Shown: piece by piece, positions 1 through 44,580 of the stretch | Position numbering within the stretch: the first letter of the stretch is position 1 | Layout of the letters: every line of letters starts with the position of its first letter | Source: Closterium sp. NIES-65 | Taxonomy: Eukaryota > Streptophyta > Zygnematophyceae > Desmidiales > Closteriaceae | Reading direction: 5' to 3' | Length of the DNA stretch: 64,000 nucleotides | NCBI GenBank assembly: GCA_948144175.1 | Contig: CANXME010000033.1 | Location: 1-64,000 of the forward strand | Notes under the pieces: generated by a model | The model's input: the letters and a program-made list of their open reading frames with translations, nothing else | What the model was told of the DNA's origin: nothing | The model's database searches: none | Position numbers and translations under genes: made by a program

Positions 1-1290
1 AAGGGTACTAGACCAAGCAGAGAGGAAGGAGGAGAGGGAGAGACTAAGCCGAAGAGGAGGAGAGCAACGCCGAGAGGAGACAAGAAAAAACAGAGAATGG
101 AGAAGAGCCTGGAGGGAGAGGATGAGAGATGCGTGTGGGGACGAGGGGGAAGGGAGAACAAGCGAAGGAGGCCTGAGGAGCGGGAAAAACAGAGAGAAAT
201 CCGGAAGATGGGAGAAAAATCCGAAGATGGGAGAGAAATCCGAAGATGGGGAGAGAGGGCCACCAGCAAACGAATGAAAGGGAACCCTCCAGATCGAATT
301 CGAAGGGAGTGAAAGGCGGGGCGAACTGGGGAGAGAAGGGAGAAGGGGAGCGGAATGGTCCAGGTAACAGAGGTAAAAGTGATGGTGCACGGAAATGGCA
401 GAAAAGATTTGCTCCTTGTTAGAGAAAGAGTAAAAAACTGAGGATGAGAAAATTTTGGGGATGAAATCGCATGGGAACGATGGGAGTGGTGGCGAGAAGG
501 AAGAGTAATGTGGGGGCGGATATGGCAAAAATGGGGTGGCGCAGAAAAGGGGAGCGAGCAAGGAAGTCGAAAGGTCAAGGAACGGGAGGGAGCAAGGAAG
601 AGGGCGGGAATAAGGAAGAGGAAAGGTTGACAGACCTGTGGAGGAGCGAGGAGAGGCACACATAGAGCGACTGCATGGCAAAAACAGGATACAGGGGCAT
701 GTCGGGGCATACAGTGGCATACAGTGGCATACAGGCACATACAGACGCATACAAAGAGCGAGAGGTGGGGGACCACAGGGTCAGGAGTGACAGATACAAA
801 AGAGGATGTTAAGAATGGAAGTGATTCTTGAGTCGACTAAAAACTCGGCCGCACGGAGAAAGACAGGAGATGAGAGGTGGGGGGGTGACACATGATCAGG
901 AGTAAGAGGATACAACAAGAACACATGCTGCATGACAGGGTCGCACATAAAATGCATGCAAAAGGGGAGGAGCGTGAGGATGATGTCGAAGACGAGAAGC
1001 TGGAGGAAGCAGCCCCAGGGCGAGACGAGGCGACATGAGGACAAGACCAGAAGGGAGCGTGAGGATGAGGGGCGACATGAGGACGACAAGACAAGAAGGG
1101 GTGGTTTTGAGTCGACTCGAAGGGGCAACAGCTGCTGGAGACTTGAAGGGGCAACAACAGCTGCTGGAGACTTGAAGGGGCAACAACAGCTGCTGGAGAC
1201 TTGAAGGGGCAACAACAGCTGCTGGAGACTTGAAGGGGCAACAACAGCTGCAGGAGGAGAGTGCTGCAGAAGAAAGTGATCCCTCCTCAC
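1..1290. other. Intron-like AG-rich sequence at left edge
   Basis: No complete gene is visible here. The sequence is strongly purine-rich on the plus strand, with simple repeats (for example about 12-bp GGCATACAGT units near 700-760) and a 29-bp tandem repeat. On the minus strand it lies downstream of the last visible SPPL exon, so I read it as intron. A fragment near 975-1010 repeats the end of the SPPL exon at 1291-1450 (the LVF-IILTL stretch), one more partial exon copy. Confidence 0.5.
1121..1250. repeat. 29-bp tandem repeat, about 4.5 copies
   Basis: The unit begins ACTTGAAGGGGCAACAACAG and ends CTGCTGGAG. Copies are almost identical, starting at 1141, 1170, 1199 and 1228. The array begins directly after a TTTTGAGTCGACTCGA palindrome-like site (1105-1120). 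Confidence 0.85.
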
Positions 1291-3396
1291 CTCGAGCGCC
1301 GCAACGCAGAAGAGCGTGAGGATGATGTAGAAGACGAGGGGCGACATGAGGAAGAAGAGCAGCAGCAGCATGACAGACGACATCACCACACGAAACCCAC
1401 TGCTGACCCCCACTGACATGTCATACGCTCCCGAGGAGTCGCCTTTGTGGCTGGAGTATTGGGGAGGAGAGAGGGATATAAATGAGATGGACATGAGCAG
1501 GGGTTGCAGCAGCAGTGCTTTGTGACGTGTATTGAGACGTGTTTTGAGACGTCTCAAACACTTCTTCAATCACGGAGGAGAGAGGGGATATAAATGAGGT
1601 GACATGAGCAGGGGTTGCAGCAGCATCACAAGACAGCATCACCACGAACCCCACCGCTGACCCCGCTGACATGTCGTAACTTTTGAGTCGACTCAAAAGT
1701 CTCCTACTGACATATCGTAACTTTTGAGTCGACTCAAAAGTCTCCTACTGACATATCGTAATGCTCCCGAGGGGCCGCCCTGGGGCTGGTAGGGACAGTG
1801 GGAGTGGGGAAGAGGAGACATGGAATACGGGAGACAGGGGGCGCAGGCCGCAGCTGACCCCACCGACATGTTGCACGCTGGCTGGTGCCTGCCTATGGCA
1901 CGGGTCAGCAAGAGCAGACCAGGAGATCACGAGGAGATTAGCTGGAGGGAGTTAAGGTACGACAAAGCGAGGTTTGGCGAGAACAATAAACATCCCTGCG
2001 TTCGCGGGCTGCGCCCTTCGACTGCTCTGCTAGCTGGCTCACTCACTCACTCACACATCCTCGCATGAAAGCAAACCCCATCACCATCATCACCCGCCCC
2101 AACCTTGTCCCCACGTTTCAACACCCAATCACTGCACCTCTTCTACTCCCCCACCACATCCTCCTTCCCTCCCCCATCTTCCCCCGTTCCCCCCCCCCCC
2201 CACTCCCCCCCGTACCTGGTCCGCCAGGGACTGCCCCGCGCCACTCTTCCTTCCAGCGCGGCCTTCTCCTCCGCGGCAGCCCACGCGGACGCGCCCACGA
2301 GCGACAGCAGCGCCAGCGCCCACAGCACCAGCTCTGCCAGGTCCAGCAGTGACCGCGGAGGCGCGTACAGGGACACAGTGACTGGCGCGGCGGAGGCGGA
2401 GGCGGAGGGGGAGGCGGAGGCGTTGGAGAGGGCATGAAGGAGGAATTGGCCTGACGAGTTGGAGACCATGACCACCGGTATAGTCACAACGCCTTCAGTC
2501 AAGTCTGTTGCGTTGCAACCCATGCCAATGATACCTGCCGCGGGGAAACCCACGTACAAGTATTGAGCCGTCACAAAGGAGGCCTTAGCTGAAACTTACC
2601 TAACTCTATGCATTGACACATATGCTGAAACACACCCAATCACTATCACAAATACATGACCCCAAAGCGTTAAAAACACGATCAAATCACATGTACAAAA
2701 CGTACATCAAGTCCCATTCACATTCAAATCGCCTGCAGGCCATACCTTGTTTGTTGTTGACCATGATAGCAGCAGCAGCTCGCAGCCGCTGCACGCGGAG
2801 GGCCTTCGAGGCTAAGCTGCACTCGCCTTTTGAGGCGCCTCAAAAACGAAAAAAACACATCAAGTCCCATTCACATTCACACCACCTGGGTTACCTTCTT
2901 CACTGTTGATGACGATGGCAGCAGCTGCTCCCAGCCGCTGCACGCGGAGGGCCTTCGAGGCGAAGCTGCAGTCGCCTCGCTGCACTAACACTGCCTGGCC
3001 CTGAAACTAGCATTGGGGAGATGGGTGAAGGTGGGCGGAGGATACGGAAAGAAGTGAAAGACAGGAGGCATGAAGACGTGAAGAAGCGGAACATGGAGTG
3101 AGGTTGAAAAAAAAGCCAAGGATAGAAGCATCTGCGCGACAAATTTGACTTCAGGAGCATGGTGACTAACGAGGGCGAGGAAAAAAGACGGGGCTCTGAG
3201 CGCACGTACTGAAGGGAGAGGAGGCAGGGGGGTCGGAACAAGCAAGCAGGGGCTGCATCTGCGCAAGGGAGAAGGAGAGCGCGTCAGCCTTGGTCTTCGG
3301 AAGCCCCGCGCCGAAGCTGGCTTCGAGAGCGAGGATTTGACGGTCATTGCTGCCGCTGATGGTGGCGTTGCCTCCCACGTGCACGGAAAGCTTGAC
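1291..3396 (-). CDS. SPPL: Signal peptide peptidase-like (SPPL) intramembrane aspartyl protease, partial (PA domain and first membrane part)
   Basis: Plant SPPLs are GxGD aspartyl proteases of the endomembrane system with a lumenal PA domain before the membrane core. Four exons join in phase: 3396-3210, 2990-2895, 2534-2216 and 1450-1291. The first encodes the start of the PA domain (LSVHVGGNATISG, then LLACSDPPAS); the second RGDCSFASKALRVQRLGAAA, the typical PA core; the third MGCNATDL, VTIPVVMVSNSSG and VSLYAPPRSLLDLAELVLW, which match the plant SPPL signature order (IPVVMISKSSG, then LYAPKRP) and enter the first membrane helix; the fourth YDMSVG followed by the leucine-rich helix VMLLLLFFLM. 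The catalytic YD and GLGD segments would lie beyond the left edge. The signal-peptide exon was not found upstream. Exons 1, 2 and 4 have partial duplicate copies in neighbouring introns. Confidence 0.85.
1681..1698. repeat. Perfect 18-bp palindrome TTTTGAGTCGACTCAAAA
   Basis: This is a perfect inverted repeat and the best representative of the dispersed palindrome family. An identical second copy lies at 1722-1739 inside a 41-bp tandem duplication. Confidence 0.95.
1722..1739. repeat. Perfect 18-bp palindrome, second copy
   Basis: Identical to the palindrome at 1681-1698, 41 bp away, with the intervening CTCCTACTGACATATCGTAA also duplicated. Confidence 0.95.
2742..2827 (-). repeat. Duplicate copy of SPPL PA-domain exon with its 5' splice site
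   Basis: A copy of the exon at 2895-2990. It reads RGECSLASKALRVQRLRAAA and ends at a usable donor (AAG|GTATGG). It differs from the functional exon at about eight amino-acid positions and only about two silent ones, so it looks unconstrained. The GAGGCGCCTC palindrome at 2828-2845 separates the two copies. Confidence 0.8.
2828..2845. repeat. Palindrome TTTTGAGGCGCCTCAAAA
   Basis: A perfect 18-bp palindrome, a variant of the family with a GGCGCC centre. It lies exactly between two copies of the SPPL PA-domain exon. Confidence 0.93.
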
Positions 3397-3426
3397 CTGA
3401 GGTGGGGGGATGGTGAAACGAGATGA

Positions 3427-3512
3427 TTTTTGAGTTGAATCAAACCCGAATCTCGAGGTCACTGCCGCCGCTGATCGTGGCGTTGACTTTCACGTGCACG
3501 ACAAGCTTGACC
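3427..3512 (-). repeat. Partial duplicate of SPPL exon start plus decayed palindrome
   Basis: The sequence at about 3448-3512 repeats the start of the exon at 3210-3396 (VKLVVHVKVNATISGG against VKLSVHVGGNATISGS) including the acceptor CCTCAG. A decayed palindrome, TTTTTGAGTTGAATCAAA at 3427-3444, lies between the two copies. Confidence 0.75.
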
Positions 3513-3539
3513 TGAGGTGAGGAGGAGGTGGGATGTGAG

Positions 3540-5166
3540 TTTTCAGTCGACTCTAGAGTCGTATTGGCTGATTATTCAAGCTAAGTTGAGGGGATGGTGG
3601 GATTGTGAAAGGATTGTGAGGAAACTCGGAGATTGTATCAGAGATGACAATGATGAGGCAAGGAAGGGATCGCCGTACCATTTCCACGCTGTTATCGCAT
3701 CCTTGTCGCGGAGACTGTGCGCTTACGGACGGCGGACACAAAATCAGGACGAGCGAGAACAGCGATAGTAACAGAAGCCGTTAGTGACGCTACACCCGGA
3801 GTGTGCTGTACAGGCAAGCATGATCGGCGAGTACTCGGCGCTCGGGTCAACCATCGACGGTCCATCTCAGACAGTACGACGATACGGTTTGCTAATTAAA
3901 GAATAACGTATGCGTTGGATTCGTGATGCTTCGGGCGGGACGAACTGGCGTCAGAATCTGCTACTTTAGAGACGTCCCTAACCTCGTGGGAGTCTGCTAA
4001 TAAACTCTCGACAAGCTAAGCTTATCCTCGCTAAGATCACGCATCAACTTCTTAACGAGTAAAAAAAACCACGGATTCCTGACCAAGGACCAACTCGGTC
4101 CTCTCCCGACGACGGCACGGAGGGGAATCTCGGAACTGTCAGCCGTGAGGGAGACCTATGGCTGACAGATAAGACAATGAGGATCAACTATTGAACTCGT
4201 CGACACGAGAGTTCCGTTGAAAGGTCGGGCAAATTCAAGGCTGGATTGGCTCTACTGCAGGATACCACTCTCTAACGTGTACAAACGTACTACACCGTAC
4301 TCGACGACCGAACAATGACATTGAAGGGTTACTTCCGAAGCTTTGAAGCTGGTTTGACGTGGACCTGTGGTCTTCTGACACTACGACCACGTCGTCAGTT
4401 TCGAGGGCTTTCCCGCGCATTTGTTGTCTGAAAAAACTGCAAATTCTGTAAGGATTTACAAATCCTTACTGAGGCACTCGTTAGCGAGGCCATCCCGAGG
4501 GTCACGCGACGAACCTGTCTTGCCTATTTCGTCGCACCGAACCACCCCCGACCGGCCTCCGCCCCAATCGCAACCATCACCGAGCCATCACATCCCGAAC
4601 CCCCCGCCTAGCTAGCTTTTCCTCTATTTCGGCCTCCTTCATTGTTTCTTCATTCAGTAATTCAGTAATTTCCATTTTCGTTATTCGTTTTACTGCGCAC
4701 TCTGCAAGTTGATTCATAACAAATTCTATACATTCAAGCGTGTTACGAGTGCAATTGAATGAACGAACGGGAATTGCACTATCGAAGCAAGAGTACAATG
4801 AGCGAAGGCATGAGCGAAAAATATATAGCGAAACTACAGTGGTAACGGTAATGGACTGTGGTTGTCGCGCGACGGGCCTGGGACTGAGGTTGGGAATTAG
4901 TGTCGAAGCGGAGGCCTGGAGCGCGGCTTACCCGCCGAGCCGTGAGGTTGGGGTGCGACGTGCGAAGGTGGCGGGCGGATTGTCGACGCGAGGATTGTGA
5001 GTGGTAACGGTGCTGACTGTGGTGCTACAGCGATGTACGCGTTGAGCAGGGATGCGAAGTAAGGAAAGGGATTTTCCTTACTAAGCGTCATAAAAGTCAT
5101 GATATTTTTAGGATGTCTTACAAGGTGACCACCTTACGCAAATTTTATCATTTACACTCAGCCCCA
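3540..5166. other. Region between SPPL and ELAPOR, no gene recognised
   Basis: This lies upstream of the visible SPPL exons and downstream of the ELAPOR stop codon. It should hold the missing first SPPL exon and promoter, but no signal-peptide exon could be identified. Base composition is more balanced than in the flanking introns. The short open frames have no family features. Confidence 0.4.
5058..5083. repeat. Small inverted repeat downstream of ELAPOR
   Basis: AGTAAGGAAA and its complement TTTCCTTACT are separated by about 5 bases. The repeat lies about 85 bases past the ELAPOR stop codon on the transcribed strand, so it would form a hairpin in the 3' end of that transcript. Confidence 0.5.
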
Positions 5167-8100
5167 CTAACTGCTCTCGTCTCCCTGCCTACGAAAGTGT
5201 GCCTCCTCATGCTCATACTCGTCGTCCTCATCACCCCCATCCATTTCCTCCATCTCATCATTCTCCTCCGCTTGCTCCGCATTCTCGCACAGCCTCGCAT
5301 ACTCCCTGTAGATCTTTCGGCTCTTGAGCCACGTCATAATCGTCATGACTGCAAGGCCGACAATTGCCAGCCCTCCAAGCGCAAAAATGGCAATGTATTT
5401 GGGGCTCAAGGTGCTTGAAGCGATGTATTTCACCTCCATGTCACAAATCCCCGCCAGTGTCCCTTCCGGAAGCTTCTCCGCTCCAGAAAGGTCCTCGTTA
5501 CAAGTCTTCGGGAGCTTCCAGATGTATGTTACGTTGTGCACACCGTTGGCGTCGGTGCAAGAGTCCTCAAATCTCTGGTAGTCGTCCTTGGTGCAGGGAA
5601 GGCAGTACTCATCAGGAGGTAAGGGCACCTGGGGATTTGGCTGGCAAAGCTGCCAGTTTGGAGGGTTAGAGGAAACAGGTACTCAGGAGAATTGAGCAAG
5701 CATACATCACCAACATGAAGAGCCAAGCCTGCGCCTTAACTCAAACACAAATTCAGGACAACATCTCCACAATAACCAAACCGAACACTTCTCCTTTCAG
5801 CCCTCCGCACCCAGCTACACCCAACCACAATCCACCCTTGGCTTGAATCACAGAAAACAGCCGTCTCTTGGTTATCTCCCCACTTCACCTGCCCCTGCCC
5901 CTGGAAACCCAATGAGTGGAGTACTCGTAAATGTAAATGTAGGTCAAGCAGCATACCCTTGGGGTCTTGTATTTGTAGATGAAGCGCTTGTTGTCGATAC
6001 AAATGGCAACGGCCACGGGCTCCATGTCAAGCACGGTGCACAGCGGGCAGGCATACGCCGTGTACCACACCATCTGGAACAGACACGATACAGGCGCCCG
6101 CAAACCCCTTCAAACCCCGTCCGAGCCGCCTGCCGTTTCCACCCTCATCCAACTCCACCCAACCCAACCAGATCCCACTTTACCTGCCCCTAGGAACACA
6201 GAGAGCAACGCACCCTTGGCGTCTTGTATTTGTAGGTGAAGCGCTTGTTGTCGATGCAGTTGGCAACGGCAACAGGATCCATATCCAGCACAGTGCACAG
6301 CGGGCACGCATACGCCGTGTACCACACCATCTGGAACAGGCATGAGACAGGCGCCTCGCGCCCCACGGGGATGACATCGCCCGACCGATTGGCCCATGCC
6401 GGGTAGGAGAGGGTCGGGTTCAGAGCTGCCTTCTTGCCCCCCTCCGTCCATGGCTCTGGGTGGCCGTAGCCTGGGGGGAACGGAGAGAGAAAGAGAGCGT
6501 GGAGAGAGGAGAGAGGTGAGGAAGAAGTGGGGAGGGGTGTGCCGGGTACCACACCACCTGGAAGAGGCAGGAGCCAGGCGCCTCCTGCTCTATCGATTGC
6601 CCCACCAGCCTTATGGTCGTACCAGCCCTGGGGTCACAGATGAGGTTGGGGTTGAAGGTGCTGGGGGCATCAAACATTGGGCAGCTCTCCCCGTTAAACG
6701 ACATCACCAGCCCTCGCCACCAGCCTCAGAATCTCACCACCAGCCTTATGTCTTACCTGCCTCGGGGTCACAAATGAAGGTGCTGCGGGCATCGGACATT
6801 GGGCAGCTCTCCCCGTTGAATGACAGCACCAGCCCTCGCCGCTCTTTTGAACTCAAAGCAATACTGCTCTTATGACTTCAACTAGACGCCTCACTCACCA
6901 GCCTCGGGGTCACAGATGAAGGTGAGATTGAAGGTGCTGGGGGCGTCGGACATCTGGTGAAGGCTGTACAATCAAGGTGCTGAGTTACATGTACATTCAG
7001 GTGCTTGTGCAACAGTCTAAACTCAAAGCCTCACCAGCCTCGGGGTCACAGATGAAGGTGAGGTTGAAGGTGCTGGGGGCGTCGGACATCGGGCAGCTCT
7101 CTCCGTGGAACGACATCACCAGCCCTCGCCGCTGCAGCTGCGGCTCGGAGAAGCTCCCCAAAGGGGCCAGTGACACGGTGTCCCCCAGGCTGTGGGCCGA
7201 TGTGGCTGTGCTGTGCTCATTCAGATTCGGGTTGATCTGATGGGGAGCGGGAGGGGAGGCGGGGGTTAGGGAGGGAGGAGAAAGGATGTGAAGGGAAGTG
7301 GACAGGATGTGGCTGTGCTCTGCTCATTCAGACTAGGAGGGGGGGCGGGGAGGGAGAAAACGGGGTGATGGAGGGGAGACGAGGAGAACGAAGGTGAGAG
7401 GGAAGGAAATGATACTTAAGTGTAATCAAAATCAGCAGTCAAAAGCAAACAAACATGCAAGAGTCAAGGCGAGGAGCGTCTGGATATCGATAGGGCGGTT
7501 TGGCTTGGAACCAGGGCACTCACCCGGCACACATAAGTGTTGTTGAGAGGCTTCCCACTGTACATGATACACGGATACGTCGTGTTGGAACAAGTCACGT
7601 TTGCGCGCCTGCTCACCACCTTGCCACCAACAAACGCTTGAGACGCCTCAAGAAGCACTCACCCGGCACACATAAGTGTTGTTGAGGGGCTTCCCAGTGT
7701 ACATGATGCACGGGTACTTCGTGTTCGCTCTCTCTCCCTTGCCGCCCCTGCCCCCCTTCCCACCACCACTATCACCACTCCACACACCACCACCCCCAGC
7801 CGCACCACCCCCAACACCAGCACCCCCAGCAGCAGCAGAGGAAGCGACAGGGCGATACACAGCGTTATCACTGTTGCTGCGAGCACACACCGACACATAG
7901 TACTTAGGACCCTTCTGCAGGTCTACAAAGGATGGGCCTTCGTATATGGGCCCCACGAGGCGGCCCAGGTTCTGGTGCGCGAGGGGGGAGAGGTCGTAAA
8001 GGAGCGTGTCTGTACTGTTGAAGGAGCGGACGATGAAGGTGCAGAAGGAGGAGGGCGAGGTGATGTCCCCTATGGCGCACTCCGCACTGCCCTCCAGAGA

Positions 8101-11100
8101 GGATGTGCCCAGGCCGCACGGCTGGCAAGCAGTGCGGTTGCCCTGAGATGGTGGCAGGGGAAGGTAGAGCAAAGGGCGAGATGCAAAAAAGGTTGACTGA
8201 GAGGGAGGTGAGAGGTCGTAGAGGAGCGTGTTGGTGGAGTTGAAGGAGCGAACAATGAAGGTGCAGAAAGAGGAGGGCGACGTGACGTCCCCTATGCGAA
8301 AGATGTTCCCAGGCCGCACGGCTGGCAGGCTGTGCGGTTGCCCTGAAATGTTTGCAGGTGACGAGGACAGGGTGGGAATGGGGAAGGGGAGAGAAGAGGC
8401 AGGGTGAGAGACTCCATTGGAGCACTGGGGTTGGGAGAAGGGATGTGACGTCCGCAATGCTGCACTCCGCACTGCCTTCCAGCGAAGATGTCCCTGGTGA
8501 ACAACACGGCTGGCAGGCAGAGCGGTTGCCCTGAGACAATAGGGGAGAACGGGGGAAGGAGGGACTGGCTAGCGCCATCATGGTGCACTCAATACGGATG
8601 AAAAAAAGGGGGAATCTGAGAACACAACTGCACTCACTGCTCGCTTCAGGTTGAAGGTGTTGGCAGTGAGGGCGAAGGGCACTTCTCACCCAGCCCTTCC
8701 CCGCCCTCACTGTAAAACCCAGCAGCAGCGCATTCCTCCCACCAATCCTCACTCTGCCCTTTGCTTAAGGAGCCAAAGAGTAAAACTAACCGCAGGTTTC
8801 GGGTTGAAGGTGTTGGCAGGGCACTTCTGGCACAGCCCTTCCCCGCCCTCACTGTAATACCCAGCAGGACACTCCTCCCACGCGTCCCCGCTCTGCCCCT
8901 TCTGCGCGCCTGCAGGGATGCGCACACACCCGGGCGCGCCCCCTGTGCCGCCCCCCACACGCGCACGCTGTGCAGGATGGCAGAGGAGCGATCGACGGAG
9001 GTGCGATCGGCGTTGAGGGTGACCCACACCCACATGATGCGGTGGCTGCCTGCTGCCAGCGGCCAATGCTGGCTGCTGCTGCGACCCACTGGCACGCTCA
9101 CGCCCATGCTGCCCCCGTCCTGAGGGAAGGTGGGAGGGGAAGATGGAGAGAGGAGTGGGTGAGAGAAAAAGGAGACAAGAGCAGAGAGGTTTGCGATCAG
9201 GTTGTCATTCATGTAAGAGAAAAGGTAAAGTTGCGATAACCTTCTCAGAAATCCCACCAACCTCACCTTCTCAGCACATGCTCATTGTCCCGCAACACAT
9301 GCCCACCATACCTCGGTATTCTCCAGCAGATTATCGTCCACATGGAAGAGGCCGCGCTGCAGGTCACCTTATCGTTGACATCACCCACCTGAATACCACA
9401 CAGCACTGCTCAACATCGCCTGACGCTCACTACCTCACAGCACCGCATATCACACCTCGATGTTCTCGAGCAGGTTGTCGTCCACGTAGAAGAAGAGTCC
9501 GCGCTGCAGGTCGCCAGGAGGGATGTCCACGTCAAAGTCGTATGTGATGTAGCCAGGGATGGTGAGATTCACTGTGAGTGCCAGCCACACCTGCGGGGAG
9601 ACGGGAGAAGGTGGTAGGCAATACAAGGAGTAGATGATGAGAATGCTTGGCAAGTGTGGTTGGACTCATGAACAACAGGTACCCAGGAGGGATGTCGACG
9701 TCAAAGTCGTATGTGATGTAGCCGGGGATGGTGAGATTCACTGTGAGCGGGCCAGCCACACCTGCAGGGAGGGGGAAACAAGGGAGATGAGAATCAGGAG
9801 GTGGTATGGTTTGGCACATGGACAAGCAAAGTCATATGTCATGTAGCCGGGGATGGTGAGATTCACAGCCAATGCTAGCCACACCTGCAGAGACAAGGGA
9901 GAGTGGTGGGGAGGGGTGAGCTTGGGTGGCACATAGACAAGCAAAGTCGTATGTGATGTAGCCGGGGATGGTGAGATTCACCGTGAGTGCCAGCCACACC
10001 TGCAGGGAGAGGAGAGAGGGAAGGAGGATGGAGAGAATGGGAACGCGCCATGTTATGGCGCATGGTCACACGATATGGTGCATGGTCACACGATATGGCG
10101 CATGGTCACACGATATGGTGCATGGTCACACGATATGGCGCATGGTCACACGATATGGTGCATGGTCACACGATATGGTGCATGGTCACACGATATGGTG
10201 CATGGTCACACGATATGGTGCATGGTCACACGATATGTGATGTAGCTGGGGATAGAGCGAGGGGGAGGGAAGACACGGTTGAGAGGACGATGAAACAAAG
10301 TAGGTGATACTGTCGGACCAAATTCACCTCTCGCGAACCAAATTCACTCAACCAACAAACACACTTACAGAAACAGCTTTGCCGTTATTTGCCCCCACCA
10401 CCCAAGATCAAGTGCACTTAACTAACAAACACACTTACAGAGGCAGTCTTGCCGTTATTCGCCCCCGAGTCCAGATAATCCCCCACCACTCGCCACCCGC
10501 CTGACCCACACTCCCCACTGCATCCAGTCTGGAAGCCGCTGGGAAGCTTCCCCTCTTCCACGGTGCGGAAGTGCTCCAGCAAGAGCATCCTCACTGCTGC
10601 CTCGCCAGGCTGGCACGGGTGGCAAGTTTCGTCCGATGTGGTTGAGGGGGCTGCAGAGGGAGGGGCAGCCGCGCCTGGAGGGGGGAGTGGTTGTACTGTT
10701 GGTGCTTCTGAGACGTTCCGCGCTGTGCCCTGAAAAAGGGAGGGAAGGGGGATGGAAAAAGGAAGAGGAAGGGAGGAAGGAACATGGGAATGGCAGGGAG
10801 GAGAGCAATGTGAGGGGAGGAACGAGTGTTGCAGATTGAGGAAGACAATGGGAGGTGGGTGGGGGTTAGGGCGGTTAGCCAGAGAAGCATCATACAGGGT
10901 GGCTGCAAGAGTTTCAAACGAAGCAGGGATTGGCTAGAGGCAGATGGCAGAGAGAATGAGTGAAGGCAGAGAGTGAAGGCACAGAGTGGCTGGGCAGACG
11001 GCCAAGAGAGTGGGTGGGGCGAGGGCGTACAGTGGGGCAGAAGGTGCAGGTGAGAGTGTCAGTGGCAGAATCCACAACTGCGTACTGCCCTGACGGGCAG

Positions 11101-17100: not shown

Positions 17101-17166
17101 TTCACGTTCGCCTCTGTGCATGGGACAGGCTTCAACTCTGCCCATGGGCATGGGTATGGGTATGGA

Positions 17167-17202
<36 letters not shown>

Positions 17203-18986
17203 GATGGGAAGGGTGGTAAGTGGGTCTCAAGGATTTCGCCACAGGTGAGGTTCATACTCCTCCTTCCCACGTTGGTCTCCATGCAGTGAAGTGCAGCAGA
17301 CCTGAAGGACGGGCTTTGGGTCTGATGAGAGTGACAGGCGTGGGCACGGGAGTCGGGGCACCAAGAACGAAAGGTTGGAGAAGGCTGCTGCGACACTGAG
17401 GACAACGGAGCTGCTTGACGGCAAAGGCAGGCCCTGGATACAAGTAGGGTCAGAGTGCGGACTGCAGTGCCGGGTGAGTGCTGCGTGCTGCGTGCTGCCT
17501 GGAGCGTGCTGTGTGCTACACTGCTGCTTACCACAGAACAGAAGGTCCACCAGGATTCGCTTCGACTCTTGCCCTCCCTGGCAGTCTATCGTTGCAGTGT
17601 GGGGGGGAAGCGGAGGGAAGCAGGGAGGGGGGAAAGGGGGGAGAAGCAGTGAGGGGAAACAAGTGAGGGGAGAAGTGAGAGTGAAACCAGCGAGGGGGAA
17701 ATACAGTGAGGGGGGGATGCAGTTGGGGGAAAGCAGTGAGGGGGGGATGCAGTGCGGGGGAAAGCAGTGAGGTACCTATGGATGAGTTGCTACATCCAGA
17801 GGAGATCCTAATGTCTAACAATTGAAACAGTACATTTGAAAGAGCTAGAGCACTTACTGCTTGGGCGATACTGCAAGTAGCATTTGCCATCATCCCCTTT
17901 CGAGTACTCCTTCGCATAGTCAGAAGGCGTACACGCTGCAAGCACACCGGGGGACGGGAGGGATTCCCAGGAACGAGACAGTCTGAGAAGTCAGCGTGCT
18001 GAATCTACAAATTTGGATTTTCACATGCTGGTTCCTTGAAAGAAACCAACCCACAAATTTAAGCTGCAGAAAACCGCATCGTAAACAGCAGGGAGTACAG
18101 ACGACTAGTCTAGCAGCAACACAGGGAGTAGCGGAAAGGAAGACGGAAAGGATGGAGAGGGAGCTGACCGCAGGGCTCCTTGCGGATGTTTTCAAACTGG
18201 AACGGGTGGGCCATCTAGTCTAGCAGTGAACAGGAAAATGCGGAAAGGAGGAGGAAAGGGATGGACAGGGAACTGACTGACCGCAGGGCTCCTTGCGGAT
18301 GTTTTCAAACTGGAAGGGGTCGGTGCAGTTGCGATTCGCCTTCTCAAAGTTAATCTCCCTCTTTCCATCTGCCACACCGCACCACGCAACACCACATCAC
18401 ACCACACCAGTCGTCAAGACATCGTAGTAGATCTTAGGATGTCTCGAAAGGTGTCGCTCTTATGCCCTGGTGCACGATACGGAACGATCTCAGATTCTCA
18501 TGGCAACCATTTGCTTGAGCTTTCTAAACGATGCAAGCCTTTATCATTCATGATGCTGCATTGTGCGTGCTGCTTTGTCGCGAATGGCGTAAGGCAGTCT
18601 TACCACCAGTAAAAACTAATAACGGATACCTTGGACAAGACCATAATGAACTTGGGCAAAGCAAAATTACCTTGTCACGGTTGAGACCAGGTTACCACGA
18701 GACACCTACTACGCCGAAAGCAGTTCAATACAATCCAAAGTTCTGCGACACTCTGTTTCTCAACTCGCAGATTACCTTGACAGGGTCCAGAAGCTCTGAC
18801 GTAATCCGTCAGTTCGCACGTCTGACTGCCACTGGATTCTGGCAGTTGAGCCATCGTCCTCTCGACGCAAACGAAGATGGAGAATAGTACGGTGGACACA
18901 ACAATCCTCGTGCGGACTGGCGCAGACACGTGGGATCCAGATCCGCGACGTGATCCTTTAGCGATTCGCGGTGCTTGAGAATCCAT
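5167..18986 (-). CDS. ELAPOR: ELAPOR1/2 (KIAA1324/EIG121) homologue, type I membrane glycoprotein, 25 exons
   Basis: Animal ELAPOR proteins are single-pass endosome-lysosome membrane proteins with cysteine-rich GCC2/GCC3 and mannose-6-phosphate-receptor-like domains. Exons, all GT-AG: 18986-18776, 18368-18282, 17935-17858, 17585-17532, 17113-17025, 16419-16338, 16023-15964, 15734-15667, 15079-14969, 14480-14395, 14091-13986, 13634-13524, 12972-12905, 12542-12492, 11989-11886, 11657-11508, 11104-11031, 10729-10439, 9590-9456, 9119-8961, 8901-8791, 8142-7663, 7236-7035, 6470-6214, 5628-5167. All phases agree and give 1228 codons plus stop (human ELAPOR1 about 1013 aa). The order matches the family: signal peptide, CELTDYVRASGPC, VDGIAFTDSACLKCPAGFF, GWRVVGDYLDSGANNGK, ECPAGYYSEGGEGLCQKC, GPSFVDLQKGPKYYVSVC, LTFICDPEAG, AYACPLCTVLD, CTKDDYQRFEDSC with YIWKLPKTC, one membrane helix (IAIFALGGLAIVGLAVMTIM) and an acidic tail. 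The role in algae is unknown. Confidence 0.92.
5950..6095 (-). repeat. Duplicate of ELAPOR exon 24 3' half, possibly an alternative exon
   Basis: This copies the 3' half of the exon at 6214-6470 (LFQMVWYTAYACPLCTVLD, then CIDNKRF, YKYKTPR) with its own donor (AGG|GTATGC). Of the changed codons in the roughly 39 compared, about 8 are silent and 3 change the residue (D/E, N/I, T/I). That is more constraint than expected for a dead copy. A CAG acceptor within the copy could allow use as an alternative 3' segment. Confidence 0.75.
6600..6960 (-). repeat. Three partial duplicates of the ELAPOR exon ending LTFICDPEAG
   Basis: The end of the exon at 7035-7236 (coding FHGESCPMSDAPSTFNLTFICD) recurs at about 6640-6710, 6756-6830 and 6894-6958, all downstream in the following intron. 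A shortened palindrome-like TTTTGAACTCAAA (6845-6857) lies between the second and third copies. The copies vary in length and several keep a GT donor. Confidence 0.8.
7520..7656 (-). repeat. Duplicate of ELAPOR exon 22 3' end with palindrome
   Basis: The end of the exon at 7663-8142 (CIMYTGKPLNNTYVCR plus donor) is repeated at about 7522-7598 (CIMYSGKPLNNTYVCR). CTTGAGACGCCTCAAG at 7638-7653 separates the two copies. Confidence 0.8.
8205..8545 (-). repeat. Two partial duplicates of the ELAPOR exon 22 5' half
   Basis: Copies of the exon start (GNRTACQPCGLGTSS, then SFCTFIVRSFNST-TLLYDLS) occur at about 8210-8345 and 8440-8545, the second reading GNRSACQPCCSPGTSSLEGS. Both keep the TCAG acceptor and lie upstream of the functional exon at 7663-8142. 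Which copy is spliced cannot be decided from sequence alone; I chose the one with the long continuous frame. Confidence 0.75.
8640..8770 (-). repeat. Duplicated segments of ELAPOR exon 21
   Basis: Two stretches repeat the exon at 8791-8901: one around 8640-8665 (ending in the AACACCTTCAACC motif) and one around 8690-8765 (SKGQSEDWWEEC, FYSEGGEGL). Both lie in the intron downstream of the functional copy. Confidence 0.7.
9325..9385 (-). repeat. Duplicate of ELAPOR exon 19 3' end
   Basis: This codes GDLQRGLFHVDDNLLENTE, matching GDLQRGLFFYVDDNLLENIE at the end of the exon at 9456-9590, with three bases missing. It lies downstream of that exon. Confidence 0.75.
9640..10010 (-). repeat. Three upstream partial duplicates of ELAPOR exon 19 start
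   Basis: The acceptor and start of the exon at 9456-9590 (VWLALTVNLTIPGYITYDF) recur at about 9690-9765, 9828-9893 and 9945-10005, each preceded by CTGCAG. Adjacent intron stretches such as CACATGGACAAGCAAAGTC are duplicated too. Confidence 0.85.
10055..10236. repeat. 20-bp tandem repeat, about 9 copies, in an ELAPOR intron
   Basis: Unit CATGGTCACACGATATGGTG, nearly perfect and alternating in one base (GGTG/GGCG). It lies directly next to the series of duplicated exon 19 starts. Confidence 0.95.
10320..10410 (-). repeat. Duplicate of ELAPOR exon 18 3' end and donor
   Basis: ACTTACAGAAACAGCTTTGCCGTTATT..GCCCCC repeats the donor end of the exon at 10439-10729 (ACTTACAGAGGCAGTCTTGCC..). The CCAAATTCACTCAACCAACAAACAC stretch is shared with the intron. 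Confidence 0.75.
11105..11312 (-). repeat. About 100-bp tandem duplication at ELAPOR exon 17 acceptor, with palindromes
   Basis: ACACACGGGGCCAGAGGGAGG..GAGAGATATGTGCCA occurs at 11107-11146 and again at about 11205-11245, and the following AGGGAGAAAGAG is also repeated. TTTTGAGTCGACTCAAA (11178-11194) sits between the copies and a decayed version, TTTCTGAGGTGCCTCAACG (11294-11312), sits at the far end, so the palindrome behaves as part of the duplicated unit or of its junction. Confidence 0.85.
11730..11790 (-). repeat. Partial duplicate of ELAPOR exon 16
   Basis: GTGCGCGTGCGTGACGAGGC followed by GGTTGAAGGTGGG mirrors the exon core at about 11590-11630 (GTGCGCGTGCGCGAGGAGGC, GGGTGAAGGTGGG). 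It lies upstream of the functional exon. Confidence 0.6.
11876..11920 (-). repeat. 21-bp tandem repeat containing the exon 15 5' splice site
   Basis: The donor region (coding strand CCACGCCCTC|GTGAGTGCACC) is present twice, 21 bp apart, giving donors after 11886 and 11907. Because 21 is a multiple of three, either donor keeps the reading frame and the protein would differ by 7 residues. Confidence 0.8.
13205..13470 (-). repeat. Two downstream duplicates of ELAPOR exon 12 3' part
   Basis: Copies of the end of the exon at 13524-13634 (HTLVWAYVKDSSF, GRDSAALQ) lie at about 13215-13325 and 13380-13465, each followed by the ACACCTGTAGGGCGACAGAG donor region. They are about 80-90% identical to the functional exon and retain GT donors. 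Confidence 0.85.
13471..13489. repeat. Palindrome TTTTTGAGTTGACTCAAAA
   Basis: A one-mismatch member of the palindrome family, lying between a duplicate of exon 12 and the functional exon. Confidence 0.9.
13762..13992 (-). repeat. 17-bp tandem array of a 5' splice site, about 13 copies
   Basis: On the coding strand the unit is CAGGTGAGTGTTGCACC (variants GCTGCATC). The first unit is the real donor of ELAPOR exon 11 (AACCAG|GTGAGT at 13986), so the array consists of consecutive strong donor sequences. It spans almost the entire space behind the exon. Confidence 0.95.
14150..14225 (-). repeat. Duplicate of ELAPOR exon 11 start with palindrome
   Basis: The CTGAGCTCACTGTGAAGCGG-AATGTGACGTACCTGG block repeats the acceptor end of the exon at 13986-14091. 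GTTGAGTCGACTGGAATT (14151-14168), a damaged member of the palindrome family, separates the copies. Confidence 0.8.
14530..14630 (-). repeat. Duplicate of ELAPOR exon 10 start with palindrome
   Basis: GCGAGGACTGCAGGTTGCTG..GGCATGTCATGCTGGTGAAGTA repeats the 5' part of the exon at 14395-14480. CTTTTTGAGGCGCCCTCAGAAAG (14532-14554 region) lies between the two copies. Confidence 0.8.
15175..15265 (-). repeat. Very recent duplicate of ELAPOR exon 9 5' half
   Basis: Matches 15005-15092 with only about one difference over roughly 85 bases, including the CAG acceptor and the TECSFSNNTGTFPCEGWYAE code. This is the youngest duplicate in the gene. Confidence 0.9.
15410..15660 (-). repeat. Duplicates around ELAPOR exon 8
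   Basis: CACCTGGAAAACCTTGAGGTCGAGGTCCTTGAAG at about 15521-15555 repeats the 3' end of the exon at 15667-15734 with its donor. The intron stretch with CACCTGCAACACAACACCCTGGGTT occurs at about 15447 and 15615. Confidence 0.75.
16490..16905 (-). repeat. Duplicates of ELAPOR exons 5 and 6 junctions
   Basis: The start of exon 6 (coding CAG|GTGGTGTACTATTTCGACAA, CAGTGCAACCCTGC) recurs at about 16490-16545, 16615-16670 and 16805-16860. Part of exon 5 (DYIRDP) recurs at about 16860-16900. All lie between the functional exons 5 and 6. Confidence 0.8.
17155..17206. repeat. Hexamer repeat CACAGG
   Basis: A short run of about 6 perfect CACAGG units (17168-17204) preceded by GGGCATGGGTATGG units, inside an ELAPOR intron. 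Confidence 0.9.
17225..17300 (-). repeat. Duplicate of ELAPOR exon 5 start
   Basis: The sequence codes METNVGRRSMNLTCGEI, related to TEANVKSMYLTCDYI at the start of the exon at 17025-17113, and lies upstream of it. Confidence 0.6.
18155..18260 (-). repeat. Duplicate of ELAPOR exon 2 3' end and donor
   Basis: CCGCAGGGCTCCTTGCGGATGTTTTCAAACTGGAA at about 18168-18202 repeats the end of the exon at 18282-18368. The flanking TCTAGCAG..GGAAA..GGATGGA intron sequence is repeated too, giving a unit of about 115 bp. Confidence 0.85.
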
Positions 18987-19578
18987 CCTGGCTAGAGTCG
19001 CTCGAAGTTTATCGCACGATTCGCCTATCCTGATGCCCTGGAGATGGAAAGTCCAGTCTTCTAGGGGAGCAGAGAATGGGGAAGCGAAAATATATGAAAA
19101 TCGCCGCCGTTAATGGGCCAGGTCGACAACGGCGTTGACACGAAGCGAGCCCACTGTGAGTCGCCTGTTGACGCGACCTGCACCTATCCGAGCGACAAAG
19201 GTCATGGCAATGTCACCCGAAGCGGCCTCTACTGCCTATATCAGGGACCTCCTCCTCCCAGCGCCATAAAGTGCAAGTGAATCAGGAGTGGTGAATGGGT
19301 TGTGAATCGGACGTGACGACAATACGACAGGGAGCCTTCGGGACTGCCGAGATATGCTCGAAACTTTCAATAGAAGGACGTTCGCAGGTCAGATACTACA
19401 GTGGCAACATTTTTTATGAAATTAGCATGTACACCATCCTACTTCCAACCCTTATTTTCTACAAAGAAATCAGCATACTTGGAAAATAGCTGTGCACTCA
19501 AGGTCTGACACACAAAAAGACCTCATTTCAGTCCTAACATACCACACACTAAATAACACAATTGTCGTTTCAGACCAG
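18987..19578. other. ELAPOR upstream region, no gene
   Basis: Between the ELAPOR start codon and the stop codon of the next minus-strand gene. It should contain the ELAPOR promoter and the 3' UTR of the Rho-N gene. No clear TATA box or conserved element was recognised. AT content rises at 19430-19570. Confidence 0.4.
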
Positions 19579-21999: not shown

Positions 22000-22700
22000 T
22001 GTCTTACACAGGATTGAAGCGCGAAGGGCGGAGAGCTCTGGTCAGCCCAACTAACCAAGGCCCTACAATGACAATGATTCCAACAATGACAACGGCCTAG
22101 AGACAAACGAGAAGGACCATTGCGAAGGTTGCTGCTTGCATGTGTTGGGTTGTGGGGGGTTGGGACCTGCTGCTGCAATGCGGCCGCATTCAAGCATGCA
22201 ACTCTGATGACATTTGGTTCGTCACACTCAACCAAAAAATGGTATGTATTGGAAGAGTGGTGCAGGAAGTACTGTTCTGCCTTTGCCAGAATGGGTGCGT
22301 ATGAACCTTTGACTCCATTCAGAAGTCATATTCTCGAAGTTTCAACAGAAAACAGTTCCTCGGGAGTTCCGTTGGGCAGAAACTGCAGAATCAACAGATG
22401 AGCTGGCGGTGAGCGGGAAACTGTTGTACGTGTGGCTCAGCGTCCCTCGCGCGCACATCGTTATCCACTCATGAGAATCCACTCGCTACAAAGGTGACTC
22501 GCGATAATCATTTTCCGTGCAGAGAATCAAAACTGCACTAAATCTGTTCTTCATAATTTGTAGGGTACAGCAAGAATAATGAGCCATTCAGCATCCACAC
22601 ATTGTCTCTTTCAAACGAGTATGCATTGGTCTGTCACCAAACGCGCTTCACACAGCAGCTGCATCTCTGCTAGAAGCAACCACCGCGATTCGCACTGAGC
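22000..22700. promoter_or_regulatory. Divergent intergenic region between two plastid-protein genes
   Basis: About 700 bases separate the start codons of the Rho-N gene (minus) and the FAD oxidoreductase (plus), so both promoters must lie here. Both products carry transit-peptide-like N-termini. I saw no obvious TATA box. The open frame at 22120-22401 has no family features. Confidence 0.5.
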
Positions 22701-24228: not shown

Positions 24229-24911
24229 TTTTTTTTCGTTGTAGAGTAATTTTTTATGCAGAGTAATTTTTTATGCACAATGTTGGCTTCCCCTCTCCTA
24301 ATTGGTTGCGTGTGGAACAGTGGGACCTGTGCATGCTGGCATGCAAGGCGAGTCGCATAGCAGTGTGGCACAGGTGGTCATGTTTTGCCCTTGTTGTAGG
24401 CCTGGGCTGCATCAGTGCTGACAGCTCATTTCACTGCCAGGATATAAATAGAAATGTAATATATGTATCATCACTGTCATTTCAGAAGATATATAGTTTA
24501 GTTCTTTAGTGTATGGGATGTTTTTCAACTAAGTATTCTTCATTGATAGTGAAATACACCCTATAAGAATAGCCCATGTCTAGAAATGTAGCATTCAGAT
24601 CAGTTGGTCTGGTCTAGCGTGCGGCGGTACGGTGTGCACAAGAGATGCGAGTGGAGGGCAACCACAGCGTCTTGAGCGGCGAGGGCGGGAGGGCGAGCAG
24701 GCATGAGAGGGAGAGTGAGAGGGAGAGCAAGAGGGGGAGTGAGAGGGGGAGTGAGGGGGGAGAGGGGAATGAGAGGGAGATGAAGTGGGGAATTGGAAGA
24801 GGGAGTGAGAGGGGGAGTGGGCGGTGAAGTTGCCACCCTCAGGGAGTGGGTGCGGGTCTCTGGTGCTCTTTGAGCCTGGGCGGACCCCACTCTCCCACTG
24901 CTTCACTGCGC
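24229..24911. other. 3' region between convergent genes
   Basis: This holds the 3' UTR of the FAD oxidoreductase and the 3' end of the next, minus-strand gene. A 60-base minus-strand stretch at about 24600-24680 (ALAAQDAVVALHSHLLC then TPYRRTLDQTN, stop) could be an alternative last exon of that gene. The rest is AT-rich, then GAGAGGGA-type purine repeats (24690-24830). Confidence 0.4.
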
Positions 24912-26960
24912 TCAGCCTCCCTGTCCGTTCTCCCTTTCAAATGCCCCCTCGTGGCCTTCCTCTCCCTGTCCCGCTCCCCCTGGCTCCACTCCTCCCCCCC
25001 CTGCTCCGCCCAGGCGGGGGCCACAGCCGAGGACCTTCATTTCTTCCAGCAGCTGGGAGAAGCGCTGCTGCGGGCGCAGACACGTTATTGCCTCGTTGAA
25101 CCGCCTCTGCCTGCGTGGGGGGAAGAGAGGGGAAGAGGGGGGGGAAAGGGGGGGAGATGGGGGGAGAGGGGGAAGAGGGGGGGAGAGGGGAGGAGAGGGC
25201 GGGAGAGGGGGGGAGAGGGTGGGAGAGGCGGGAGAGAGGGCGGAACAAGGAGGAAATGAGAGGAGATGAGGACTGCCGCTGCGGACGCAAACACATGATG
25301 GCCTCATTGAACCGGCGCTGGCTGCATGGGGGGAGGGGGGGGGGGGGGGGGGGGGGGAGAGAGATGGGTGGGAGGGTGTTGTGGCGGGGGAAAAGGGTGG
25401 GTAGAGAGAGTAGGAGAGAAGAACCACTGCTGCGAGCGCGGACACGTTATGGCCTCGTTGAACCGGCGCTGGCTGCACGGGGAGGGAAGGGGGTGAGAGG
25501 GGGGGAGAGGAGAAGGGTGGGGGTGTGGGGAGGACAAGGAGGGTTCACGGACTGGATGCCAGAGTTGAAAGCAAGCAGCGTTGAAAGCAAGCAGCGTTGA
25601 AAGCAAGCAGCGTTGGAAGCAAGCAGCACAGCACCCTAGACTATACGACACGCTTTTGTTGATCATACCAGAATGATGCTCACTTGGGCAGGCAGGCTCA
25701 CTGGATGTTTGGTGGGCCGTTGGCAGGGCAGCAGCGCACCACTCACCGGATGACAGCGCTTACAGCGACTGACGGCACTCACCAGATGTCAGCGCTTACA
25801 GCGCTGACAGCACTCAAGTGCCAACTCTTGAGGCGCCTAAGAATCATTTAGAAGTCAAACACAACACAGCACTCACCGAATGACGGCGTTGACGGTGTCC
25901 CTCAGTTGCAGCCCGCCCCTCTGAATACCTGCACGGATGGGCGCACGGGGATGGGCGCACGGGGATGGGCGCACGGGGATGGGCGCACGGGGATGGGCGC
26001 ACGGGGATGGGCGCACGGGGATGGGCGCACGGGGATGGGCGCATGGGGATGGGCGCACGGGGATGGGCGCACGGGGATGGGCGCACGGGGATGGGCGCAC
26101 GGGGATAGGCGCACGGGGATGGGCGCATGGGGATGGGCGCACGGGGATGGGCGCACGGGGATGGGCGCATGGGGATGGGCGCATGGGGATGGGCGCAGAG
26201 GGATGGTGAAAATGCAGTCAGGCAGGGCACATGCACAAAGGCATGGGCATGCATGGGCATGGACATGGGCATGGGCATGGGCGTGGGCATGGACATGGGC
26301 ATGGACATGGGCATAGACATGGGCATGGGCATGGGCATGCACACGCACGCGCACATGCACATGAACCCCCCTTCCTCTCCCAGACTTCCCCATCTCTCCC
26401 ACCTGTTCGATCATGAGCGCGGAGTGCGGCCAGTGGAACCCAAAGTAAGACAGCATGCACGCGTCCAGCTCCGCGATCAGCTCCTCCCCCAGCTGCTCCC
26501 CCGCCCCCGCTCCCGCGAGCCCCCGCCTCCCCCCTGTCTGCGCGACGAGCGCGAGAAGGTTGGCGCGGCTCTTATCGAATGTGCTCTTATCCGATGTGCT
26601 CTTATCGCCCCTCACTTAGTCGTCCGCCACCTGCGCCCGTAGAGCCACGGCTGCCATGTGACTTTTGAGTCGCCTCAAAAGTCGCCTGCGCCAGTAGCGC
26701 CACCGCTGCCAGGTCCGTGGGCATGCCCCACTGGCGCACTGGCGGACGGGGAAAGCGGAGAGGAGGACGGGGGAGGGGGACGAGGAGTGTCCGAAGGGAA
26801 AGGCGCGGGTCGCACATGATGCCCGTGCGCTCACTACCACGTACCACCTTCTCGTCCTCTCTAACCTTCCCGTGGCTGTGCGTGGGACCGTGGAACATTT
26901 CCGGGAGCTGCGGCTTCCCAGGCGGGAGTGCGTGTTTTTCCGCACATGACACCAAGAGTT
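24912..26960 (-). CDS. Unrecognised conserved-looking gene, partial exon model
   Basis: I do not recognise the family. Three exons join in phase: one ending at 26403 (about 26570-26403: ANLLALVAQTGGRRG, then LDACMLSYFGFHWPHSALMI), 25920-25877 (RGGLQLRDTVNAVIR) and 25110-24912 (QRRFNEAITCLRPQQRFSQL, then LEEMKVLGCGPRLGG, with a Gly/Glu-rich end). An upstream piece at 26640-26960 (MPTDLAAVALLAQ) probably belongs to it, but its splicing is unclear. The aromatic LSYFGFHWPH motif and the charged helix look like real coding sequence. Its introns contain the same kind of partial exon duplicates and palindromes as ELAPOR and SPPL, plus a large minisatellite. Confidence 0.5.
25290..25480 (-). repeat. 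Two upstream duplicates of the QRRFNEAITC exon start
   Basis: The acceptor and first about 40 bases of the exon at 24912-25110 recur at about 25290-25322 (RRFNEAIMCLRPQ) and 25432-25482 (QRRFNEAITCPRSQQ), separated by G-rich simple sequence. All three copies keep GCAG acceptors. Confidence 0.85.
25328..25360. repeat. Long poly-G run
   Basis: A nearly uninterrupted run of about 29 G with a single A near its start. Such runs are prone to sequencing error and can form G-quadruplexes. Confidence 0.95.
25738..25845 (-). repeat. Duplicated donor ends of a 44-base exon, with palindrome
   Basis: The end of the exon at 25877-25920 (coding GTCATTCG|GTGAGTG) recurs as GTCATCCG|GTGAGTG at about 25740 and as GACATCTG|GTGAGTG at about 25780. 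CTCTTGAGGCGCCTAAGAA (25825-25843), a decayed palindrome, lies between the copies and the functional exon. Confidence 0.8.
25932..26208. repeat. 14-bp minisatellite, about 19 copies
   Basis: Unit GATGGGCGCACGGG with occasional GCATGGG variants, directly before the acceptor of the exon at 25877-25920. Long open frames across it on both strands are artefacts of the repeat. Confidence 0.95.
26236..26340. repeat. Hexamer repeat ATGGGC/ATGGAC
   Basis: Imperfect hexamer array (GGCATGGGCATGGACATGG...) in the same intron as the 14-bp minisatellite. Confidence 0.9.
26650..26710 (-). repeat. Duplicated exon end separated by palindrome TTTTGAGTCGCCTCAAAA
   Basis: CTGGCAGCGGTGGCGCTACTGGCGCAG (coding) at about 26687-26713 and ATGGCAGCCGTGGCTCTACGGGCGCAG at about 26631-26658 are copies. 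The palindrome at 26663-26680 lies exactly between them. Only the second copy is followed by a GT donor. Confidence 0.85.
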
Positions 26961-44545: not shown

Positions 44546-44580
44546 CTAGCGTTTTCACTCGATAGATTAAGGGCCCACCA

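Follow-up and report, generated by a model that had tools for sequence, protein, structure and literature searches.

Palindromes and junction copies in the window

The window, that is, the whole 64-kb stretch of Closterium sp. NIES-65 nuclear DNA that was analysed, carries on its minus strand an ELAPOR-like gene (5170..18368, 24 exons as drawn) and part of a signal peptide peptidase-like (SPPL) gene (PA and peptidase A22B; 695..3904, approximate limits). The introns of the ELAPOR-like gene contain copies of the gene's own exon-intron junctions, and 36% of the intron interior resembles the adjacent junctions. A preliminary description of this DNA had listed about 17 short palindromes, and a scan for the motif with a 4-base centre and up to four arm mismatches recovered 16 of the 17, at most 3 bases from where they had been placed; the remaining one, near 6845, is decayed and was recognised by eye. 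The formula given there, TTTTGAG-N6-CTCAAAA, was mis-spaced (4 matches versus 2.05 expected); the correct centre has 4 bases and is of the TCGA, GCGC, or ACGT type in the window. With at most two arm mismatches, 10 sites were found versus ~0.2 expected (20 simulations), all within 826-26663, and at this stringency the reported absence from 28-64 kb holds. The class with four mismatches comprises 22 sites versus 15 expected, and the motifs at 13320, 14150, and 14534 alone are not above chance. Because it is located between copies, site 13320 (four mismatches) was added to the 17, giving 18 sites.

Palindromes and duplications are given here without strand. The motif scan places a decayed TCGA-type palindrome, TCTTGAGTCGACTAAAAA, at 826..843, flanked by copies at 760-803 and 872-920, and another TCGA-type palindrome at 1105..1122, the right arm of which reappears in the subsequent 29-bp minisatellite. 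An ACGT-type palindrome at 1542..1559, preceded by two extra tandem 12-base arm units, lies between copies at 1463-1514 and 1574-1625, and two identical 22-bp palindromes, ACTTTTGAGTCGACTCAAAAGT, belong to a 41-bp tandem unit at 1679..1741. In the duplication at 2697..2976, copies 2697-2827 and 2852-2976 enclose a GCGC-type palindrome (2828-2845), and the donor of an SPPL exon falls within the true copy. An acceptor junction is copied at 3330..3608 (3330-3415, 3447-3530, and, weakly, 3577-3608), with palindromes 3428-3445 and 3540-3557 between the copies. A decayed palindrome at 6843..6860 lies within an array of donor-junction copies (6621-7130), and the duplication at 7516..7768 (copies 7516-7632 and 7655-7768, donor junction 7663) encloses a palindrome at 7636-7653. 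At 11104..11388, the first of three copies (11104-11172, 11202-11278, and the weak 11326-11388) begins at acceptor junction 11104 and includes a single exonic base; the associated palindromes are 11175-11198 (TCGA, 24 bp) and 11296-11313 (GCGC type, decayed). At 13197..13606, three donor-junction copies are separated by palindromes 13320-13337 (decayed) and 13472-13489. Acceptor junctions 14091 and 14481 belong to the duplications at 14055..14251 (copies 14055-14133 and 14173-14251, decayed palindrome 14150-14167) and 14425..14650 (copies 14425-14525 and 14553-14650, palindrome 14534-14551, GCGC type with one inserted C), respectively. Finally, a decayed GCGC-type palindrome lies at 25826..25843 in the third neighbouring gene, and at 26630..26714 a 24-bp palindrome (26660-26683) separates copies 26630-26659 and 26685-26714.

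The claim that most of these palindromes sit between direct copies was borne out. Left-right alignments scored at least 80 at 9 of 17 window sites versus 13% of random positions in 400-27000. When adjacency of the copies was required, 15 of 18 sites scored at least 24 and 13 of 18 at least 40, versus 12.5% and 9.3% of random positions, respectively; among the sites with at most two arm mismatches, 8 of 10 reached 40. Sites 1105, 11296, and 25826 fail this test and have only weak or distant copies. Because only 1 of 32 other palindromes in the window passes, at either level, we reject the idea that any palindrome behaves in this way.

A genome-wide family with flanking duplications

Across the 874-Mb genome, we counted 24,964 TTTTGAG-NCGN-CTCAAAA cores with zero mismatches versus 0 for a reversed-pattern control, and with up to two mismatches 41,723 near-copies versus 14; on these counts, a chance origin of the motif is rejected. 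The centre is self-complementary, of one of three types, in 96% of the perfect-core copies. Covariation of the centre pairs is significant for the palindrome as a whole (P 0.0008), while a separate hairpin for each half-palindrome was rejected because its covariation is non-significant (525 and 2865 of 5000 shuffles were equally high). Inserts around the symmetric core measure 18-62 bp overall, with ends that differ from copy to copy. At the loci examined, most young GCGC-type copies have inserts of ~18-23 bp, and the maximum is 38 bp for the TCGA type and ~52 bp for the ACGT type; the palindrome itself exceeds 18 bp at several window sites, reaching 24 bp at 11175 and 26660. Extended-arm subfamilies (CGAGGTGACTTTTGAGTC and CCACGTG..GAAGAAGGGTTTTGAGAC) recur between loci, arm units are repeated at 1542 and at genome loci L048 and L071, and there are tandem arrays in which palindrome units keep multiplying. 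Twenty arbitrarily chosen stretches totalling 194,371 bases held one perfect site versus ~5 expected from the genome mean, and the family is therefore unevenly spread; five of the 20 stretches are satellite-rich.

An assembly artefact is judged unlikely because the copies are diverged, spread over many contigs, and read in protein models of other strains. The palindrome is translated in 3 of 26 Closterium protein models, once as FEAPQKS (NIES-54 model P0127, in the same intron as window 11104..11388) and twice as RVDSK (NIES-64, palindrome 1105..1122). Because the same loose peptide motifs gave 4 matches among 235 control proteins, this argument depends on intron placement, judged by eye. Viral contigs gave 0 matches to the palindrome and bacterial and archaeal genomes 8 scattered matches, near the ~4 reckoned by chance, in sets that may omit the window's own relatives.

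Beyond the window, we tested 58 perfect-arm sites, a non-random sample taken largely from the top of the list, from few contigs, and with arrays included (5 in L012); at 48 of them, direct copies lie on both sides at most 45 bp away. The corresponding figure is 10.6% for random non-satellite positions (28.1% with satellite stretches kept), so that the association described for the window is far from a random rate elsewhere; an earlier run of the test gave 55 of 65 sites versus 40 of 150 random positions. The test detected no adjacent duplication at seven of the 58 sites and gave scores below 30 at three more. At 51 genome sites, the duplications are 13-135 bp long (median 51). Over 14 sites, with divergences that were entered manually, palindrome decay correlates only weakly with copy divergence (Spearman 0.46, P 0.09).

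The cleanest young case consists of 60 bp, a palindromic insert of 23 bp, and the same 60 bp again; at two other young loci, identical copies of 23 and 22 bp flank inserts of 23 and 29 bp, respectively. Inserts of 18 bp lie flush between 90-bp copies (96%) and between 39-bp copies (95%). By eye, none of the listed young cases has a one-sided tail, and their symmetry is two-sided. No empty site was found among the additional copies that the genome has of the window locus and of the L042 site: for the former, pieces of two such copies align across the palindromes, and for the latter, a copy at 99% carries the same duplication.

Splice junctions and the origin of the duplications

Each of 19 hand-picked duplications in the two well-read genes contains one exon-intron junction. 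Exon and intron parts of the duplicates have similar identities (1136/1267 and 521/588), and ascertainment through faster intron decay was rejected on this ground. In seven palindrome-bearing pairs, the true copy is bordered by the palindrome towards the intron and by an unbroken exon on its other side, which supports an exon-side border that was contiguous prior to the event. Inserts in the window are located within introns beside junction copies, and the splice sites are those of the exon copies. Palindromic insertion with duplication is apparently one of the ways in which introns of this genome grew.

The link between palindrome and duplication is one-sided: most palindromes examined have a flanking duplication, whereas most duplications aligned in the two well-read genes are palindrome-free. 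Twelve of the 19 hand-picked duplications have no palindrome, so that in the same genes palindrome-free duplications are at least as common as palindrome-bearing ones. It follows that duplication can occur without the palindrome, and the earlier proposal that duplicate and palindrome are the footprint of one process does not hold in the sense of an obligatory process. A search for decayed palindromes in 16 palindrome-free spacers gave a summed score of 169 versus 158 expected, with 2 of 16 individually below 0.05; taken together, these spacers have no clear remnant of a palindrome, and the idea that all duplications contain a decayed one is rejected. One window insert is a 127-bp tRNA-like sequence between copies of 106 and 104 bp (87%), which follows the same rule of long direct copies around an insert; box motifs in this one example suggest a SINE, and neither an ARAGORN scan of the window nor Rfam identified a tRNA.

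On balance, we think that the palindromes form a family of ultra-short self-complementary inserts, spread through the nuclear genome, each of which entered a filled-in staggered break in a single event. A pair of strand nicks at a distance of 13-135 bp would give a staggered break, fill-in of both overhangs would produce two direct copies, and the palindrome, made by self-templated synthesis or captured, would be joined in between the filled-in ends, all in one step. Palindrome-free duplications would then be breaks of the same kind joined with little or other filler. The model leaves unexplained why the breaks are located at splice junctions. Among the mechanisms suggested in the preliminary description, a tiny mobile element fits best given the 24,964 copies and the 96% of self-complementary centres, and a nuclease target or hairpin-driven template switching fits less well.

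A two-step origin, in which an intronic palindrome existed beforehand and a hairpin or cruciform formed by it then caused breakage or stalled replication so that the junction was copied across it, seems unlikely to us. In the seven pairs, the palindrome occupies the side of the true copy that faces the intron, a place where a prior palindrome would be tolerated, and tandem arrays indicate that units go on multiplying; yet lone palindromes should then be common, while 48 of 58 perfect-arm sites are flanked by a duplication and 31 of 32 other window palindromes have no such copies, and a spreading mechanism would still be required for the 41,723 near-copies. Target-primed insertion usually gives duplications of variable length, so the observed lengths, as well as the SINE-like insert with its 106- and 104-bp flanks, would suit LINE-type retrotransposition machinery that makes long target duplications and inserts a very short self-complementary RNA copy. 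We find this reading very doubtful because the young cases are tailless and symmetric on two sides and the SINE reading comes from box motifs of a single example with no ARAGORN or Rfam tRNA. A transposase leaves a target duplication of one fixed short length; flanking duplications of 13-135 bp and variable insert ends therefore make a MITE-like miniature DNA transposon with two abutting terminal inverted repeats highly improbable, even though extended-arm subfamilies recur between loci. Finally, filler captured in break repair, either plastid or mitochondrial short repeats or tails added on both ends by a reverse-transcriptase- or telomerase-like enzyme, is hardly credible: the parts of the literature consulted describe Volvox organelle palindromes also found in the nucleus (PMC2670323) and repeat-rich Closterium plastid DNA (PMC4877394), and the repeated arm units at 1542, L048, and L071 resemble iterated addition, but organelle fragments should carry unrelated neighbouring sequence and the inserts centre on the core.

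Relation to known systems and implications

As far as described in the relevant part of PMC8355091, small tandem duplications are linked to nearby opposite-strand nicks, and repair of staggered breaks (fill-in, patch-mediated) likewise yields direct copies that adjoin or are separated by very little filler. The window and the fetched loci show two direct copies with a short filler where they meet; unlike in staggered-break repair, the Closterium filler is often one fixed self-complementary sequence with tens of thousands of genome copies. Organelle repeats of Allomyces, Volvox, and Fusarium are, in the sections used of PMC2670323 and PMC7218506, very short, palindromic, located in introns or spacers, and thought mobile. 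The Closterium palindromes share shortness, palindromy, and intron location with these double-hairpin repeats but differ in lying in introns of nuclear genes and in having a single common core and long flanking duplications; the main text of the Volvox palindrome paper (PMC2670323) never names duplications. MITEs and introners also have many copies and inverted repeats and are intronic, and some introner families have duplications of 3-9 bp (PMC9860276, in part). In Closterium, by contrast, the duplications are of no fixed short length (13-135 bp, median 51, 51 sites), which is also unlike transposase-made duplications, the insert is a self-complementary core without interior, and in the window it is not itself the intron. 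Duplications of variable length are shared with SINEs and other non-LTR elements; an RNA-derived body with a 3' tail was not found, the inserts being symmetric and 18-62 bp long (tails checked by eye). Intron gain or growth by tandem duplication, as in the portion used of PMC4974935, likewise ties a tandem duplication in a gene to intron change. In Closterium, unlike in that system, duplications occur in most introns of one gene and no new introns are made. Searches of the open-licence literature listed no report of this element. To our knowledge, no known family has this combination of features.

We tentatively propose, as a possible reading, that the palindrome is a new nuclear mobile element of ~18-50 bp, fully self-complementary, which would enter staggered breaks at exon-intron junctions, copy its first half into its second, leave a long target duplication of variable length, and have helped to lengthen introns genome-wide. 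If so, it would be among the smallest repeated mobile DNAs known to us in a nuclear genome, in a member of the algal group nearest to land plants. Its tens of thousands of sites would be datable through their flanking copies, and along the genome the palindromes would record where breaks were made and repaired and how long the overhangs were. How introns grow, and how a non-coding sequence of almost no length spreads, would thereby become testable.

Palindromes and adjacent copies in the window

Eighteen sites of the palindrome family, which has the core TTTTGAG-NCGN-CTCAAAA, are present in the window. Ten of these are strict, i.e. they have a 4-base centre and at most two arm mismatches, where ~0.2 would be expected, and none of the 10 lies between 28 and 64 kb, as the preliminary description had it. 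The placement of the palindromes in three neighbouring genes also holds: a signal peptide peptidase-like gene, an ELAPOR-like gene (5170-18368) and an unnamed gene (~24.6-26.8 kb), all on the minus strand, for which the NIES-65 protein P0128 is a model. In the public models P0121, P0125 and P0128, the ELAPOR-like gene is joined to its neighbours and junction copies are translated as exons; in P0121 and P0125, a palindrome is also translated as an exon. A FAD oxidoreductase at 22701-24228 matches a protein of Closterium sp. NIES-65 at 100% identity, with 86% of the query covered.

The left and right flanks of the window palindromes are direct copies, often only a few bases from the palindrome. 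Using an adjacency test, in which direct copies are required close on both sides, we found a flanking duplication (score ≥40) at 13 of the 18 family sites and 8 of the 10 strict sites, bearing out the association proposed earlier; the same threshold was reached at 1/32 other window palindromes and 9.3% of random positions. Sites 1105, 11296 and 25826 did not pass the test. In a placement test, spacers of blast-detected duplications contained seven of the 18 family sites where 0.55 would be expected, a count reached in none of 20,000 shuffles, and four of the 10 strict sites (0.30 expected; 5 of 20,000 shuffles gave as many). A 29-bp minisatellite at 1105-1270 includes the right arm of the adjoining palindrome, as if seeded by it, and an unrelated 22-bp palindrome, GTAAGGATTTACAAATCCTTAC, at 4448-4469 is without flanking copies.

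A self-complementary insert between copies of variable length

The perfect core TTTTGAGNCGNCTCAAAA has 24,964 copies in the 874 Mb assembly (reversed control, 0), and the TCGA form with ≤2 mismatches has 41,723 matches assembly-wide (control, 14). Density is uneven: arbitrarily chosen stretches totalling 194,371 bases contained a single perfect site; 5 of 20 such stretches (L013-L032) are satellite-rich. Perfect cores with TCGA (13,080), GCGC (5,851) and ACGT (5,047) centres together number 23,978, or 96%, and because only ~40% self-complementary centres are reckoned if the two centre bases are independent, the palindrome halves are copies of each other and not two independent arms.

The link between palindrome and duplicate also extends beyond the window. 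The 45 loci fetched (40 chosen for their sites, four earlier loci and one arbitrary stretch containing a site) include 58 perfect-arm sites, of which 48 (score ≥30) or 51 (≥24) have duplications within 45 bp on both sides; this sample is not random, being mostly first-listed places on few contigs and including some arrays. The corresponding values for random positions were 10.6% and 13.0% in 15 non-satellite stretches, and 28.1% and 29.6% with five satellite stretches kept; another run with satellite stretches kept gave 55/65 sites versus 40/150 random positions. Across the 51 sites, duplications measured 13-135 bp (median 51) and inserts 18-62 bp (median 27). Thus, a fixed self-complementary insert sits between direct copies of variable length.

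Among the youngest cases, L012:2810 consists of 60 bp, ACTTTTGAGTCGACTCAAAAGTC and the identical 60 bp, with a donor splice site inside the copy (minus strand, read by eye); L038 has the same insert between 23-bp copies, L052 has 22-bp copies, and flush 18 bp inserts separate copies of 90 bp (96%) at L066 and 39 bp (95%) at L068. Extended arms recur between loci: TCGA copies reach CGAGGTGACTTTTGAGTC (L057), and ACGT copies have arms lengthened towards CCACGTG..GAAGAAGGGTTTTGAGAC (L054, L043, L033 and, with an ACGG centre, L071). Arm units recur within some inserts, with three units of 12 bases at window 1542 and further repeats in L071 and L048, and copy-plus-palindrome tandem arrays have palindromes at their joints (L012:1501-1666, period 37; contig C21:1006431-1006868, period 42). 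Related GAATTC-centred palindromes at L044:478, L043:91 and L022:4130 are a possible fourth type.

Exon-intron junctions and the age of the copies

We aligned 19 local duplications, hand-picked from two well-read genes with exon limits that we drew ourselves; seven contain a palindrome and 12 do not. Each of the 19 spans a single exon-intron junction, to within 3 bases; 10 are donors and 9 acceptors, and at 11104 the exonic part is one base. Identity is about equal in the exon (1136/1267) and intron (521/588) parts. For the 17 duplications in the ELAPOR-like gene, one junction is expected in 31% of random placements when wholly exonic positions are left out, and hence P ~3e-9 if the duplications are independent and the introns had their present lengths; shorter introns at the time of duplication would raise this expectation. 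An exon-interior duplication (11577-11631) exists outside the 19.

Of the 7049 bases of intron interior in the ELAPOR-like gene, 2569 (36%) match adjacent exons and flanks, in 16 of 22 introns of ≥200 bp, with or without a palindrome, versus 0 bases against non-adjacent exons. Part of this share is minisatellite repeating junction sequence, e.g. in intron 13637-13987. More than one-third of the intron interior of this gene is worn copies of its own borders.

Because a NIES-54 model translates FEAPQKS within the intron that contains site 11296, and two NIES-64 models translate RVDSK at site 1105, these two sites are probably older than the strain split. The window locus is present in three near-identical copies in the assembly (C33, the window's own contig, C1865 and C170). 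The C1865 and C170 pieces align full-length at 97.9-100%, with the palindromes included, and the duplication at the L042 site recurs in a 99% copy of that site; none of these copies is an empty site, i.e. with neither palindrome nor duplication.

Known systems and a possible mechanism

Four known systems were compared. Unlike introners, the inserts in the window are not themselves introns, and they lie in nuclear genes, not in the organelle home of double-hairpin elements; the palindromic inserts of the young cases show no RNA-derived body with a tail as in SINEs, and the duplications of 13-135 bp are not the fixed short ones of MITEs. A search of open-licence papers found no description of such an element, and the main text of the Closterium genome paper (PMC10407611) has no word beginning 'palindrom'.

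The exon side is uninterrupted in 7/7 palindrome-bearing junction pairs. We suggest that two nicks on opposite strands would be followed by fill-in of both ends, which would then be joined together with the palindromic insert. Small tandem duplications have been linked to nearby opposing-strand breaks and fill-in synthesis (PMC8355091). The symmetry of the centres points to copying of the second palindrome half from the first, or to capture of a self-complementary piece that already existed.

A tRNA-like (SINE-like) insert of 127 bp at 44316-44442 (minus strand; B-box GGGTTCGAATCCC) is flanked by direct copies of 106 and 104 bp with 87% identity (44210-44546). Because neither ARAGORN nor Rfam returned a tRNA for it, the SINE reading is drawn solely from the box motifs. 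This insert shows that long duplication accompanies a second kind of insert in the Closterium genome.
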